A stretch of 30,301 nucleotides of DNA, from positions 1 through 30,301 of IMG/VR virus record IMGVR_UViG_3300043410_001853. One strand, written 5' to 3'. Shown here one piece after another: positions 2,911 to 30,301 of this stretch. The DNA is from a virus. The position numbers and the translations under genes were made by a program. Numbering within the stretch: the first letter of the stretch is position 1; each line of letters opens with the position of its first letter. A model generated the notes under the pieces. It saw only the letters and a list, made by a program, of their open reading frames with translations. It was not told where the DNA came from and ran no database searches.

Positions 2911-3603
2911 CTAGACGATGGAAATGGACAGGTCTGACTCTTTCGCCAGTTCTGCGAGGTGCTTGTCCAGTTTCCGCAGCATGATCGCGCGCACGTTGTT
3001 ATCGTCTGCCAGCATGACCACGGCACGCAGGTTCTTCGCGTCCGCTTCCTTCAGATTGACAGTCTGGCCTGCCAGCTTCTTCGCCAGATTGCGATACTCG
3101 CTCACGTGCTTTTCCAGCGTGACAGCGTTGATTGACGGCACCTTGGCGCGGATGGTGTCCCGCAGAGGATCAGCCGCATGGACTCCGAACCACGCCTCGA
3201 TCGTCTCGCCATCCAGCCGACCAGTGCTGTTCTTGCCCGTGTAGAAGTAGGCCAGCACGAACGGCACTGCCAGCATGTCCGGGTCTACGAAGATGTCAGC
3301 GGTTGTCGTCATGCTGGACCCGTTCAACGCGTCATTCACGATGCTGCGAATGATCGTGTCCTGCGTGTCGTTGAACGTGGAGCGCAGCATGAAGGTGGCG
3401 TGCTCATTCTCAGGCACGATCAGGTCCAAGCTGTTATCGGGGATGGCCACCACGACGGCGGGACGGTCTGCGTCCACCTTGGTTTCATCCTTCTTGGTCT
3501 TGAACCGGATGATGGCAAGGCGGTGACCAGCAGGGCAACGGTCAGCGGATGTCTTATTCCACACGTTCACCTTGTATGGATCGTAGGATGCGAGGATGGA
3601 CAT
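2911..3603 (-). CDS. Hypothetical phage protein, 230 aa
   Basis: The frame is open to 3675, but the ATG at 3603-3601 has AGGAG seven bases upstream and gives a natural N-terminus (MSILASYDPYKVNVWNKT). The product is soluble. The central part (PDMLAVPFVLAYFYTGKN) is hydrophobic but short, and the C-terminal third (LEKHVSEYRNLAKKLAGQTVNLKEADAKNL onward) is strongly helical and may be a coiled coil. It is the largest complete leftward gene here and is flanked on both sides by hairpins. I recognise no enzyme motif. Being second from the divergent control region, it is probably expressed early and strongly; the function is unknown. Confidence 0.75.
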   Translation of the reverse strand: MSILASYDPYKVNVWNKTSADRCPAGHRLAIIRFKTKKDETKVDADRPAVVVAIPDNSLDLIVPENEHATFMLRSTFNDTQDTIIRSIVNDALNGSSMTTTADIFVDPDMLAVPFVLAYFYTGKNSTGRLDGETIEAWFGVHAADPLRDTIRAKVPSINAVTLEKHVSEYRNLAKKLAGQTVNLKEADAKNLRAVVMLADDNNVRAIMLRKLDKHLAELAKESDLSISIV

Positions 3604-3698: not shown

Positions 3699-3974
3699 CT
3701 AGCGGCTGGCAAACGCTACAGCGTTGGCGAGATTGCTAGCTACGGTCAGCCGCATACGATGGATACGCTTGCGTTCCGCACCAGTGAATGCCGTACGGCC
3801 ATCTTCCAGCGCGCGGAAGTAGGTGTCAGCAATGCACTCGGTAGGATAGCCCGTGTTCAGCAGGCACTCATACATGCGGTATCCATCGTACAGGCTACGC
3901 GCCATAGCAGCGCGACCAGCGGCTGCCCAGTCAGCCCGATAGCACGTGCCGTAAACTCCGCTTGTCATGTCCAT
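3699..3974 (-). CDS. Hypothetical protein, 91 aa, first leftward gene from the control region
   Basis: Longer frames extend into the repeat region, but the ATG at 3974-3972 has AAGGAAGG about six bases upstream and yields a sensible protein (MDMTSGVYGTCYRADW). The product is helical and rich in Ala, Arg and Tyr (AAGRAAMARSLYDGYRMYECL and TGAERKRIHRMRLTVASNLANAVAFASR), basic towards the C-terminus, with no membrane segment. As the promoter-proximal gene on the left side of the divergent region it is likely among the first transcribed, a typical place for host-takeover proteins. That role is inference; no family is recognised. Confidence 0.7.
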   Translation of the reverse strand: MDMTSGVYGTCYRADWAAAGRAAMARSLYDGYRMYECLLNTGYPTECIADTYFRALEDGRTAFTGAERKRIHRMRLTVASNLANAVAFASR

Positions 3975-4016: not shown

Positions 4017-4045
4017 ACGTTGATCGTCTCGTTCGATCTTGTCAA
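4017..4045 (-). promoter_or_regulatory. Possible leftward promoter with perfect -35 hexamer
   Basis: On the minus strand, CTTGACA appears with TTGACA at 4045-4040, a perfect -35 hexamer. The sequence 17 bases further on (CAACGT, 4022-4017) is a poor -10, so either an activator assists or the promoter belongs to another sigma class. It would drive the leftward genes beginning at 3974. Confidence 0.3.
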
Positions 4046-4069
4046 GCCCCCCCCTCTGACCAGGGTGCA

Positions 4070-4089
4070 CCATTCCGCATCCGTAACGA
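4070..4089 (+). repeat. 20-bp control-region repeat, copy 1
   Basis: CCATTCCGCATCCGTAACGA. Copy 2 at 4118-4137 differs by a single base, and the starts are 48 bases apart. Confidence 0.75.
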
Positions 4090-4117
4090 TACGGTCCCGA
4101 AACGGTTTCAGATGTAA

Positions 4118-4137
4118 CCATTCCGCATCCGCAACGA
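4118..4137 (+). repeat. 20-bp control-region repeat, copy 2
   Basis: CCATTCCGCATCCGCAACGA, 19 of 20 identical to copy 1. It lies immediately before the first TGTATATACA palindrome. Confidence 0.75.
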
Positions 4138-4141
4138 CTAC

Positions 4142-4155
4142 GCTGTATATACACG
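4142..4155. promoter_or_regulatory. Palindromic control element GCTGTATATACACG, copy 1
   Basis: The core TGTATATACA is a perfect 10-bp palindrome. The full 14 bases recur at 4196-4209 and 4238-4251. This could be a dimeric repressor operator or, since the core contains TGTATA, a -10 element for a phage sigma factor. Confidence 0.7.
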
Positions 4156-4167
4156 CCGTAACTACCG

Positions 4168-4183
4168 TTGCGTATACGGAATG
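4168..4183 (-). repeat. Inverted third copy of the CATTCCGCATCCG repeat
   Basis: On the minus strand this reads CATTCCGTATACGCAA, 14 of 16 identical to CATTCCGCATCCGCAA of copy 2. It lies between the first and second TGTATATACA elements and faces the other two copies. Confidence 0.55.
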
Positions 4184-4195
4184 ACGTACGGACGG

Positions 4196-4209
4196 GCTGT
4201 ATATACACG
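4196..4209. promoter_or_regulatory. Palindromic control element GCTGTATATACACG, copy 2
   Basis: Identical 14-base copy, 54 bases from copy 1. Confidence 0.7.
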
Positions 4210-4237
4210 GGTAGACGCAGCATGACCGGACAGACAG

Positions 4238-4251
4238 GCTGTATATACACG
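4238..4251. promoter_or_regulatory. Palindromic control element GCTGTATATACACG, copy 3
   Basis: Identical 14-base copy, 42 bases from copy 2. It is flanked by two exact copies of GGACAGACA (4228-4236 and 4257-4265). Confidence 0.7.
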
Positions 4252-4286
4252 CGTCAGGACAGACAATCCGCGCATACATTCGTCAT

Positions 4287-4310
4287 ACCGACAATCATAG
4301 GTGTGCGAAC
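4287..4310 (+). repeat. 24-bp near-direct repeat, copy 1
   Basis: Begins ACCGACA and ends with GTGTGC plus GAAC. It matches 21 of 24 bases of the copy at 4320-4343; the 33-base period would place both copies on about the same face of the helix. Confidence 0.6.
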
Positions 4311-4319
4311 AGTCTGGAA

Positions 4320-4343
4320 ACCGACATTCATACGTGTGCCAAC
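4320..4343 (+). repeat. 24-bp near-direct repeat, copy 2
   Basis: Begins ACCGACA and ends with GTGTGC plus CAAC, with three mismatches to copy 1. It is the element nearest the rightward operon, followed by the G6 tract and the AT-rich stretch. Confidence 0.6.
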
Positions 4344-4394
4344 GACCGCCTAGGGGGGTGGAAGCCTTTTTAACCTGGGGCCTGGAGACTATCC

Positions 4395-4432
4395 TTTACC
4401 ATCCTCCCTAAAATCCTAAAAAATTTCATACA
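4395..4432 (+). promoter_or_regulatory. AT-rich stretch, possible rightward late promoter
   Basis: TTTACC followed by CCTAAAATCCTAAAAAATTTCATA forms the only clearly AT-rich segment of the control region, about 150-180 bases before the first rightward gene. The short unit CCTAAAA is repeated in tandem (4407-4413 and 4415-4421). No convincing -35/-10 pair can be assigned, so the promoter call rests on composition and position only. Confidence 0.25.
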
Positions 4433-6136: not shown

Positions 6137-6140
6137 TGTG

Positions 6141-6680
6141 ATGGCAGTCGACGTGCAGCGTATCAAGAGTCTACTCGGAGATGGGCTCACCACGGAAGTG
6201 GTTGCGCGTGCCGTCGGCTGCACCTCTTCGTACATCTCGCAACTCATGGCTGATGAGGACTTCCGTACGGAAGTTGCGGAAATGCGGGTGCGAGCACTGG
6301 CTGGGCACACCGAGCGGGATAAGCGGATTGACAGCATCGAGGATCGACTGCTCTCCAAGCTGGAGGAAGTGGTTCCGCACATGTACAAGCCGGCGGACAT
6401 TCTTCGTGCAACTGTCGCAGTGAACGCGATGAAGAGGCGGGGAGCTACCAGCAACGATCAGCAGAACATCATGCATACGCAGGTGGTGAACATCAATCTG
6501 CCTCCTGCTGCTGCACGACAGTTCGTTATCAATCAGGAAGGTGTTGTCATCGAGGCGGATAAGGAGACGCTGGTGACGATGCCTGCCACACAACTGATGC
6601 GGAAACTCGCGGAAGAAGCTGCGGGTACGCAGAAGGAGAAGTACGCAACTGCTGGGAGGTTCCTACGTGATGCTGGATAG
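6141..6680 (+). CDS. Probable terminase small subunit (HTH protein), 179 aa
   Basis: The ATG at 6141 has AAGGAG seven bases upstream (a GTG precedes it directly at 6138). Residues about 14-45 (LLGDGLTTEVVARAVGCTSS, YISQLMADEDFRTEV) form a helix-turn-helix in which GCTSSYISQLM fits the recognition helix. A charged helical stretch follows (RIDSIEDRLLSKLEEVV) and a C-terminal tail with NINLPPAAARQF. Small terminase subunits usually combine an N-terminal HTH that recognises the packaging site with an oligomerising helical core, and the gene lies one short gene before the large subunit. An ordinary transcription regulator is the alternative, but context makes it less likely. Confidence 0.7.
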   Translation: MAVDVQRIKSLLGDGLTTEVVARAVGCTSSYISQLMADEDFRTEVAEMRVRALAGHTERDKRIDSIEDRLLSKLEEVVPHMYKPADILRATVAVNAMKRRGATSNDQQNIMHTQVVNINLPPAAARQFVINQEGVVIEADKETLVTMPATQLMRKLAEEAAGTQKEKYATAGRFLRDAG

Positions 6681-6871: not shown

Positions 6872-8431
6872 ATGACTGCGCCGAAGGACTGGGCAAAGCT
6901 CATTGGTGTGGACGAGCTCACAGACACGCGTGTTCCAGACGGTGTTGGCGAGGCGGACATGCTGGAGAACAGCACGTACTCCTTCGACGTGGATGAGGTG
7001 CGAGCAGCTGCGGAACAGGATTTGGACTTCCTGGCTGCGCTAGCAATGCCGAACAACTTTGAGTTTGCGTTTCCCCCTGTGCTGAAGACTGCGTGGGAGC
7101 TCCTGCGAAAGAATGTGATGAACATCGAGGAGTTCCCACAGCTTGCGTTAGGGCTTCCGCGCGGGCATGGGAAGAGCACTATGGTGAAGCTGTTTTGCTT
7201 GTATCTGATACTCTTCTCGAAAACACGCTTCTTCCTCATCACGTCTGCAACGGAACAGCTCGCTACGAACTTCCTCTCGGATGTGATGGATTATCTGTCG
7301 GAACCGAACATCATTGCGGCTTTCGGAAACTGGAAGCTGTCACTGGAGACGGATACGAAGGTGCTGAAGAAGTTCGTGTTTCGCGGCCGTCCGATCGTGC
7401 TCGTAGCTGTGGGCGCTGGTGGGGCTGTGCGCGGCCTGAATCTGAAGAATGAGCGCCCGGATGTTGTCATCTTTGACGACATACAGACGCGGGAATGCAG
7501 CGAGAGTAAGATACAGAGTGACGCGCTGTCTCGTTGGATGGTGAACACCGCGATGAAGGCGAAGAGTCCGAAAGGTTGCTTGTTCATCTTCTGCGGGAAC
7601 ATGTTCCCTGGACCGAACTCACTGCTGCGGAAACTGAAGAACAGTAATGAGTGGGTGAAGTTCATCAGTGGCGCTATCCTGGCGAATGGGAAGGCGCTTT
7701 GGCCGGAACTGCGTAGCATGGCTTCGCTCATTAAGGAGCTGAATAACGACATTTCCATGGGTCACCCGGAAGCGTTCTTCTCGGAAGTGCTGAACGACAC
7801 GGAAACGGGTGTGAACAGCACGACGGATCTGTCGTTGCTAGCGGAGTGGAAGTGGACTGCGGAGGATCAGCCGCAAGGGAAGTTCATCATTGTGGATCCT
7901 GCGAACAATAAGTCGCACAGTGACAAGGTAGCGATCGGCTACGTGGAAGTGTACGATGGAACTCCTGCTCTGCGGAGGGTGCTGGAAGAGCGGCTCTCAC
8001 CAGGGGATACGATTCGGCAGGCGCTACTGATGGCTCTGCAGACTGGTACGAGGATCATCGCAGTGGAGTCCACCGCGTATCAGTACTCGCTTCTGTACTG
8101 GTTCACGGAAGTATGCAAGCAGCTGCGTATCACGGGTATCCAAGCGGTGGATATCTACACGGGTGTGCTGAACAAGAACGGACGTATCTCGGATGCGCTG
8201 AAGGAGCTTACAGCGGGAGAGCTCGTACTGCATCCGGATGTGAAGAGCGCCGTCACCTGGCAGGTGGTGAACTGGAACCCGCTGAAGAGAGATAACGTGG
8301 ATGGACTCCTGGATCTGCTCACGTACATGCGGAAAGTGGTGGAAGTGTACGCGTATGCGATTGCGACGGACAGCCACATACTGATTGACGAGTCGGAGCG
8401 TCCGGCTATGACGGAAGAGCATGCGTTCTGA
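6872..8431 (+). CDS. terL: Terminase large subunit (packaging ATPase-nuclease), 519 aa
   Basis: The motor that drives DNA into the prohead and cuts the concatemer. The N-terminal ATPase has Walker A GLPRGHGKST (residues 94-103, with K101) and Walker B DVVIFDD (197-203). The C-terminal RNase H-like nuclease shows IIVDPANN (D342), IIAVESTA (E399) and the closing acidic pair VDGLLDLL (D477 and D481), as expected for two-metal cleavage. The length is normal for the family. The ATG follows one base after the preceding stop, with a GAGGAAG-type site inside that gene. All catalytic residues I look for are present, so it should be functional. Confidence 0.95.
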   Translation: MTAPKDWAKLIGVDELTDTRVPDGVGEADMLENSTYSFDVDEVRAAAEQDLDFLAALAMPNNFEFAFPPVLKTAWELLRKNVMNIEEFPQLALGLPRGHGKSTMVKLFCLYLILFSKTRFFLITSATEQLATNFLSDVMDYLSEPNIIAAFGNWKLSLETDTKVLKKFVFRGRPIVLVAVGAGGAVRGLNLKNERPDVVIFDDIQTRECSESKIQSDALSRWMVNTAMKAKSPKGCLFIFCGNMFPGPNSLLRKLKNSNEWVKFISGAILANGKALWPELRSMASLIKELNNDISMGHPEAFFSEVLNDTETGVNSTTDLSLLAEWKWTAEDQPQGKFIIVDPANNKSHSDKVAIGYVEVYDGTPALRRVLEERLSPGDTIRQALLMALQTGTRIIAVESTAYQYSLLYWFTEVCKQLRITGIQAVDIYTGVLNKNGRISDALKELTAGELVLHPDVKSAVTWQVVNWNPLKRDNVDGLLDLLTYMRKVVEVYAYAIATDSHILIDESERPAMTEEHAF

Positions 8432-18114: not shown

Positions 18115-18414
18115 ATGCCGCAGGATATAAACGAACGCCTTGCCAGGCTGGAGGCAGACATGACGTCGATGAAGCAAGCCTTCGTGCGACACTCAGAAGT
18201 CGCCACGTCCAACACGCAGGAACTGAAGGACCTACGTGCGGATATGTCTACGCTGCTGGAGATCTCGCAGAACATCGAGAGTGGCATGAAACTCGCGGTG
18301 ATGGGCGGGAAAGCTGCGAGATGGGTGGGCGGAACGGTGGTGAGCATCATTGCGCTGGTGCAAGCGTACTACTACGTGAAGACCGGAACACCGCCGAGTA
18401 TCACACTGAAGTGA
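18115..18414 (+). CDS. Coiled-coil protein with C-terminal membrane helix (XhlA-like layout), 99 aa
   Basis: GGGGGT precedes the ATG at seven bases. Residues 1-60 are a coiled coil (NERLARLEADMTSMKQAFV, then NTQELKDLRADMSTLLEI) and residues about 67-90 contain one membrane segment (RWVGGTVVSIIALVQAYYYV). This layout is shared with XhlA-type haemolysin/holin accessory proteins and with several unclassified phage proteins; the similarity is architectural only. A longer frame starting at 18096 reads as noise and is rejected. It is the last small gene before the ejection proteins and is followed by a hairpin. Confidence 0.7.
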   Translation: MPQDINERLARLEADMTSMKQAFVRHSEVATSNTQELKDLRADMSTLLEISQNIESGMKLAVMGGKAARWVGGTVVSIIALVQAYYYVKTGTPPSITLK

Positions 18415-29647: not shown

Positions 29648-30121
29648 TCAGAACTCCTTCCCACCTTCTTTCAGTCGGTTCTCCGGCTTGTGATCCGCGC
29701 GCTCCAGATTGTACTTCACCTTGCGCAGAATAGTGTGCACGATGCTGTGTTCCATGCCGGTGCCGCCAAGGAGATCACCAAGGCGGATGAACGTATCCGC
29801 GATCTCCTCTTCGAACATGCTGACACCAGGAAGATGATCGCTGGGAAGTCCCTTCCTCGCACCTTCCAGTGCTTCGGAGAGTTCACTGTGACTGAGCGCG
29901 ATGCGTTCGCCTACGTTGAGTTCGAGCGGCTCACCCGTCTTCGGGTCGTGCCACCAACCGCTAGCGACAGCTGCTGCGTGACAGTAGAGGATGAGATTTG
30001 TGAGTTGCGTCGTATCGTAGAGGCGCATGATCTGATGCGCTTCCACCATGAGCTTCGCGGTGTCCTGCGACAAGGTTGTGCGTACCGTGCGCAGCTTCGG
30101 AAACGTCTGTGTATCACTCAT
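29648..30121 (-). CDS. MazG-like nucleotide pyrophosphohydrolase, 157 aa
   Basis: Hydrolyses NTPs or related alarmone-like nucleotides to monophosphates and pyrophosphate in the MazG/all-alpha NTP-PPase superfamily. The metal-binding pattern ExxE(12-28)ExxD is present as E80-L-S-E83 within SHSELSEALEG and E106-I-A-D109 within FEEEIADTFIRLGDLL, 22 residues apart. An N-terminal helical extension (residues 1-50) precedes the domain, and the C-terminus HKPENRLKEGGKEF is conserved in some phage members. Phage MazG-like proteins are thought to adjust nucleotide or stress-alarmone pools of the host. The start overlaps the upstream stop as ATGA, with AAGGA nine bases before it. Confidence 0.8.
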   Translation of the reverse strand: MSDTQTFPKLRTVRTTLSQDTAKLMVEAHQIMRLYDTTQLTNLILYCHAAAVASGWWHDPKTGEPLELNVGERIALSHSELSEALEGARKGLPSDHLPGVSMFEEEIADTFIRLGDLLGGTGMEHSIVHTILRKVKYNLERADHKPENRLKEGGKEF

Positions 30122-30301
30122 GTAAGGAGGTCCTTCTCTTCTTTCGTAAGGAGGTCGTAATCCACGTGGACTGGCACTAGGGCAGGATCACGAGAAGGTA
30201 GCCAGCCAACTTCACCCTTCCCGTTTCGCACACTCTGGATCTTCCCTGCGGTTTGCAAGGAGAGCAGAATGTCTCCCAGCCGCTTGATGCTATCGAGGTT
30301 T
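30118..30301 (-). CDS. 3' part of a protein with possible winged-helix end (runs off right edge)
   Basis: An open leftward frame enters from the right edge and ends at TGA 30120-30118, inside the ATG of the MazG-like gene. The 60 visible residues contain LDSIKRLGDILLSLQTAGKI followed by QSVRNGKGEVGWLPSRDP. This is a helix, turn and beta-hairpin arrangement that fits the last helix and wing of a winged-helix domain, though it is too short to be sure. The tail YDLLTKEEKDLLT contains a repeated DLLT encoded by the 11-base repeat described among the findings. Confidence 0.65.
   Translation of the reverse strand, partial: NLDSIKRLGDILLSLQTAGKIQSVRNGKGEVGWLPSRDPALVPVHVDYDLLTKEEKDLLT
30122..30156 (-). 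promoter_or_regulatory. Two anti-SD-like repeats before the MazG-like start codon
   Basis: On the minus strand GACCTCCTTAC occurs at 30132-30122 and 30156-30146. Each contains ACCTCCTTA, the sequence at the 3' end of bacterial 16S rRNA. The gene's own AAGGA (30135-30131) could pair with TCCTT of the outer copy (30152-30148), hiding the ribosome site until upstream translation opens it. Confidence 0.35.

Follow-up and report, generated by a model that had tools for sequence, protein, structure and literature searches.

Three identical copies of GCTGTATATACACG, a 14-mer with a palindromic core, lie in non-coding DNA where the leftward early genes of a phage meet its rightward terminase and structural genes, on the side of the early genes. 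On protein sequence comparison, the phage is a podovirus related to PaP2/119X and Tiera. With a probability of roughly one half, these sites are a group of operators at this junction to which a small dimeric DNA-binding protein binds, a reading drawn from the sequence and its comparison with other phage genomes. The window analyzed here is the whole stretch of 30,301 nucleotides that makes up the IMG/VR record IMGVR_UViG_3300043410_001853 (positions 1 to 30,301).

The three copies, all matched exactly on the plus strand, occupy positions 4142–4155, 4196–4209 and 4238–4251, precisely where the first-pass annotation had placed them, and at up to three mismatches the 30.3-kb record contains only one additional match, a three-mismatch site at 18120. 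The core, TGTATATACA, is indeed the perfect palindrome that had been claimed (10 bp), whereas the flanking GC and CG, although the same in all copies, are asymmetric. With at most one mismatch, the core occurs solely at these three positions, at no other gene start or elsewhere in the record, compared with an average of 0.10 occurrences in shuffles of the window, and three copies were reached in 0 of 100 such shuffles. In 1000 dinucleotide-preserving shuffles of the segment 3975–4549, the longest word that occurs three times has 9 bases, against 14 in the real sequence. Rather than being scattered through coding sequence, the 14-mer is confined to three non-coding copies, beyond what chance provides. 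The left flanks of copies 2 and 3 are also alike (28 bp, 86%). The site starts are 54 and 42 bp apart, that is, 5.1 and 4.0 helical turns at 10.5 bp per turn, so that the good helical phase originally ascribed to both intervals holds for the second pair only. A 183-aa frame on the minus strand spans the sites. The portion of this frame that lies above the 91-aa gene has a codon-usage score of −0.33 (only 5% of coding tiles score below +0.26), and the possibility that the palindromes are a repeat within a coding sequence is rejected because this in-frame ORF is non-coding by codon usage.

Two further repeat families, absent from the first-pass annotation, interleave with the palindromes. The second family consists of two plus-strand copies at 4069–4089 (ACCATTCCGCATCCGTAACGA) and 4117–4137 (95% identical), which share ACCATTCCGCATCCG at 4069 and 4117, and an inverted, minus-strand copy at 4164–4184; the inverted arms (4119–4136 and 4166–4183) are 89% complementary and enclose palindrome copy 1. 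The third family comprises two adjacent 33-nt copies on the plus strand, with starts at 4276 and 4309 (4276–4341, 76% identical). In addition, a related 8-bp palindrome, CGTATACG, a GTATAC-type word read from the sequence, is located at 4171–4178, halfway between copies 1 and 2.

At the DNA level, the window has no similarity to isolated phages. The large terminase subunit (TerL), portal and major capsid proteins are homologous to those of the PaP2/119X-like phages (Fredfastierviridae and wider relatives), with 29–39% identity to PaP2/119X, Polaromonas phage Tiera and EBPR podovirus 3, and the gene layout is that of the same group, with a leftward early module, a rightward terminase/structural module and a conserved element in between. 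On the left, the first leftward gene (3699–3974, minus strand) encodes a 91-aa protein for which no homologue was found in the relatives, and is followed by the gene of a 230-aa early protein (2911–3603, minus strand) that most relatives also carry on this side of the region and that has no Pfam, PHROG or PDB match; this protein was considered as a possible regulator and set aside, its structural model having a pLDDT of 73 and a fold without a PDB match. On the right, the plus strand encodes the small terminase subunit (TerS; 6138–6680), with 105 tblastn matches in relatives, the top ones at ~47% identity, and a weak HTH_31 match, followed by TerL (6872–8431, phrog_38). The record is most likely a genome fragment, given that the DNA polymerase and primase of the relatives are missing. 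A minus-strand ORF is open at both ends of the record (1–665 and 30118–30301) and reads in frame across them for 282 aa even though the polymerase genes are missing, which may be due to chance or point to a circular or deleted form. Near the right end, a MazG-like pyrophosphatase is encoded on the minus strand (29648–30121; phrog_5658, 3e-45).

The conserved element is tripartite and consists of GGGGGTAGG-RCCTTTTT, ~17 nt, TATCCTATA and then CTAAACTTTTT. Among the relatives, which were gathered by TerL and portal alignments, homologues of the element are found in 48 related loci (L082–L241), as well as at the genome ends of Tiera and in P5, ~0.7–1.1 kb upstream of TerL, a distance that can reach 5 kb in the closest group. 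In the window, the element spans 4353–4427 on the plus strand, 100–210 bp to the right of the palindromes, with the three parts GGGGGGTGGAAGCCTTTTT (4353–4371), TATCCTTTACC (4390–4400; TATCCTATA in most relatives) and CCTAAAAAATTTC (4415–4427; CTAAACTTTTT in most relatives). As deposited, the Tiera genome ends with ...GGGGGTGGTCGGCTTTTTT...TGTATCAA and starts with TAGGCCTCC, so that the boundary falls inside the TATCCTATA homologue; the authors determined ends by PhageTerm and rearranged the genome, the outcome for Tiera itself not being spelled out in their text (PMC9959647). The position of this end inside the element, together with the use of PhageTerm, suggests that the element is probably the packaging cut, or genome end, of this podovirus family. 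Contig ends also pile up 750–1750 bp upstream of TerL, a clustering that is explained in part by simple repeats. Kuura, with its 606-bp terminal repeat, was considered as a second proof of the end and discarded because its ends have no clear element, and the PaP2-type records have arbitrary start points and therefore do not help to place the end. As the original description of a divergent control region implies, the sites have leftward genes on one side and rightward genes on the other, but the element separates them from the latter. With a probable genome end in this position, the palindromes on virion DNA would probably form part of the end that carries the early genes, and not of a single divergent promoter region.

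Repeats at this location are a family-wide feature. A repeated word of at least 11 bases is present within 250 bp to the left of the element in 24 of the 41 relatives, compared with 5.3% of random windows (p ~1e-20), and on the right side in only 4 of the 41. The repeated words are lineage-specific, and some are dyads whereas others are not: the dyads include CGGCAAAAATTGCCG in L194 and L202, ACATTAATGT in L188, TTCTCN6GAGAA in L221, GTGACN7GTCAC in L237 and TTGTATACA in L092, where two copies are separated by 22 bp. Across the family, a dyad bias of the repeat units is no more than a trend (p = 0.07), which speaks against the operator reading, and it was dropped as a rule. In the closest pair, L098 and L131 (92.7% identity in TerL), the flanks are 78–90% and the element is 88% identical, but the last 120 bp to the left of the element only 28–62%, and the tandem units differ. 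Judging from these comparisons, that is, from left-side repeats that are family-wide, lineage-specific and divergent even in this pair, the three palindromes are the form that a fast-changing repeat block takes in this phage. L194 and L202, which are not among the closest TerL pairs, share their repeated dyad as if operators had been exchanged. Separately, L089, L100, L188 and L208 carry, within the early region or close to it, arrays of GCCA-N4-TGGC-like words that recur every 16 bp.

Under the operator interpretation, the three palindromes would be bound by one small homodimeric protein, most likely a member of the ribbon-helix-helix (RHH)/small-antitoxin class of palindrome binders, with one dimer per site and at least two dimers on one face of the DNA (42 bp, 4.0 turns). 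Located just left of the probable genome end, the bound dimers would hold down or time transcription from a leftward promoter and, once the ends join in concatemers, perhaps control the terminase operon as well. The protein, its class, its binding as a dimer and the direction of control are what we infer from the identity and perfect symmetry of non-coding sites in excess of chance and from the different dyad repeats found at the same place in other lineages of the family. The sites resemble RHH/CopG operators in that several identical non-coding palindromes lie near a promoter candidate, albeit a weak one. This candidate (4017–4045, minus strand), the only leftward one detected with approximate E. 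coli matrices, has a perfect −35 hexamer TTGACA (4045–4040), a 17-nt spacer and a poor −10, CAACGT, and the latter counts against control by the palindromes, as does its distance of 95–200 bp from them, with no overlap. Strong leftward sigma-70 promoters were also considered as a rule for the family and rejected, the enrichment being weak (23% vs 10%).

The proposal of a dimeric regulator gains from the report that Phd(1–55), the dimeric N-terminal antitoxin domain of Enterococcus faecalis Phd, binds this very core, TGTATATACA, both in EMSA and in co-crystals (PMC13034048), and from non-coding arrays of the same core that precede RHH-like genes. Its main weakness, besides the lack of overlap between promoter candidate and sites, is that no cognate gene was found in the window. 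Pfam and custom HMM scans of the 30.3-kb window detect no RHH, Phd (PF02604) or similar gene, whether beside the sites or elsewhere; among 26 relatives, RHH_1 has no match and Phd a single one, below the cut-off. These scans for a cognate gene cover a 30.3-kb fragment from which the DNA polymerase/primase part of the genome is missing. The word GTATATAC fits the GntR/HutC operator consensus, GT-N-TA-N-AC.

Pairs of TGTATATACA sites 32–62 bp apart are present in 110 viral stretches, and each of the 31 distinct loci in which three or more copies fall within 450 bp is non-coding, whereas 50 of 75 single 14-mer matches lie within genes. The 14-mer itself was discarded as a conserved unit: its 76 single matches in viral contigs are mostly genic, and one falls in a family member, by chance. 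At least 8 of the 31 arrays, in unrelated phages, directly precede or overlap the start of a small gene that is either RHH-like (L254, L268, L279, L282 and L346) or encodes a KYLLYIH...CKxG...C protein to which no fold is assigned (L260, L261 and L343). The Pfam matches are weak and below the cut-off (NikA-like, 1e-5, in L282 and L346; CopG or RHH_1, 0.03, in L254 and L268), and the small genes of L260, L261, L279 and L343 have no Pfam RHH match, so that the RHH label comes partly from our reading of the sequences. In Pseudomonas prophages (L249, L252, L263 and ~20 similar ones), two TGTATATACA sites with a spacing of 46 or 54 bp precede a pair of BrnT-like and CopG-antitoxin-like genes, often with an S24-type repressor gene adjacent. 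At least 11 of the 31 arrays (L248, L254, L261, L268, L271, L279, L282, L303, L343, L346 and L351) have a large terminase gene within ~3 kb, and the L260 array adjoins a small terminase gene; in the comparison set of 124 neighbours of single matches, no terminase family is seen twice or more (families seen once are unlisted). By our own estimate, roughly 15% of 6-kb phage windows contain a terminase by chance, which limits the weight of this proximity. Arrays accompanied by small RHH-like or KYLLYIH genes near the terminase possibly make up an undescribed regulatory module.

This proximity to terminase genes also speaks for the strongest rival explanation, unlikely as it is, namely, that the palindromes, along with the repeats that interleave with them, serve as accessory recognition sites and help the terminase or a partner protein to find and cut the element at 4353–4427. 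Short repeated sites adjoin the genome end in phage lambda (the R sites of cosB) and in T7 (the terminal short repeats). The one-sided placement of the repeats next to a probable terminal element, the coincidence of that element with the deposited end of Tiera and the clustering of contig ends would all fit such a role, with the reservation on simple repeats given above. However, TerS is conserved (~47% identity to the closest relatives), yet the repeats are not common to the relatives, and lambda cosB is on the opposite side, beside the terminase genes.

The next alternative, neutral turnover, is improbable: the region would be a hypervariable spacer, its short words arising by duplication and then decaying, and would be conserved just as a gap that separates the early operon from the terminus. 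The divergence of the block between L098 and L131, against their well-conserved flanks and element, is as expected under this scenario, as is the fact that the repeat units of relatives are not generally palindromic, but three 10-bp palindromes that are perfect, identical and set in differing flanks, and the presence of the same 10-mer as non-coding arrays in other phages, would be left unexplained. A replication origin at the genome end, with the repeats serving as iterons or weak DnaA boxes, ranks lower still. Six DnaA boxes (five TTATCCACA and one TTATGCACA) are present in the same region of L210, within ~230 bp, about 215–430 bp to the left of its element, and this cluster suggests a DnaA-type origin there; moreover, ATATACACG in the palindromes matches 7 of the 9 bases of TTATNCACA, and the PaP2-like phage Shea has been reported to persist as an episome (PMC13348215). 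Against an origin, L210 is the only one of the 49 element-bearing loci with such a cluster, none being detected in the window region with TTATNCACA, chance alone should give several boxes with two mismatches in 575 bp, and the region is not AT-rich (GC 54.5%). Finally, the suggestion in the first-pass annotation that the sites could be −10 elements at which a phage sigma factor, like that of phiEco32, starts middle or late transcription in both directions, prompted by the resemblance of TGTATA to the −10 element quoted for that phage, is highly improbable: neither the window, in which part of the genome is missing, nor the 26 related records contain a sigma factor (Sigma70_r2 has no match and Sigma70_r4_2 none above the cut-off, in a search that scores in 10–13 control genomes), which leaves this reading without support, a search for a T7-type polymerase, with T7 as the positive control, found none, there is no extended −10/−35 arrangement at the palindromes, and no further gene start has a copy.

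If the element is the cut and the palindromes are operators, a single patch of DNA would link early control to the genome ends in a podovirus family that is common but unstudied. The operator code would then be the most rapidly diverging part of all, as is expected where superinfection immunity is at work. For a PaP2-like phage, both carriage as an episome and resistance to superinfection have been reported (PMC13348215). The recurrence of one 10-mer in unrelated phages, next to RHH-like genes and terminase genes, would provide a searchable handle on the regulator class. More broadly, we tentatively propose, as a doubtful generalization, that TGTATATACA arrays at the terminase locus or genome end of unrelated tailed phages are an undescribed switch or packaging-control module, in which a small RHH-type protein is combined with its own palindrome array, the array of the present phage residing in a hypervariable block beside a newly recognized family-wide genome-end element.

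Among the known systems, the phiEco32 −10 elements have TGTATA in common with the sites, but the phage described here belongs to another lineage. The sites begin with CTGTATAT, as does a LexA box (CTG-N10-CAG), but this identification is rejected, the CAG half being missing in all three copies (CCG, GGT and CGT at that position). Compared with the R sites of lambda cosB and the end repeats of T7, the sites are perfect palindromes and lie on the side away from the terminase genes. The operator of E. faecalis Phd contains the identical 10-bp palindrome (PMC13034048), but as one site in a toxin-antitoxin promoter, whereas the window has three sites and no Phd-type gene was found in it. The TGTATATACA arrays of other phages mostly have a spacing of 14–30 bp, as is usual beside RHH-like genes, with such a gene adjoining, in contrast to the intervals of 42 and 54 bp seen here, which speak against an operator array of that type; nevertheless, the arrays at RHH/CopG-like and BrnT/CopG-like genes (L249, L252, L254, L268, L279, L282 and L346) likewise consist of multiple non-coding palindromes.
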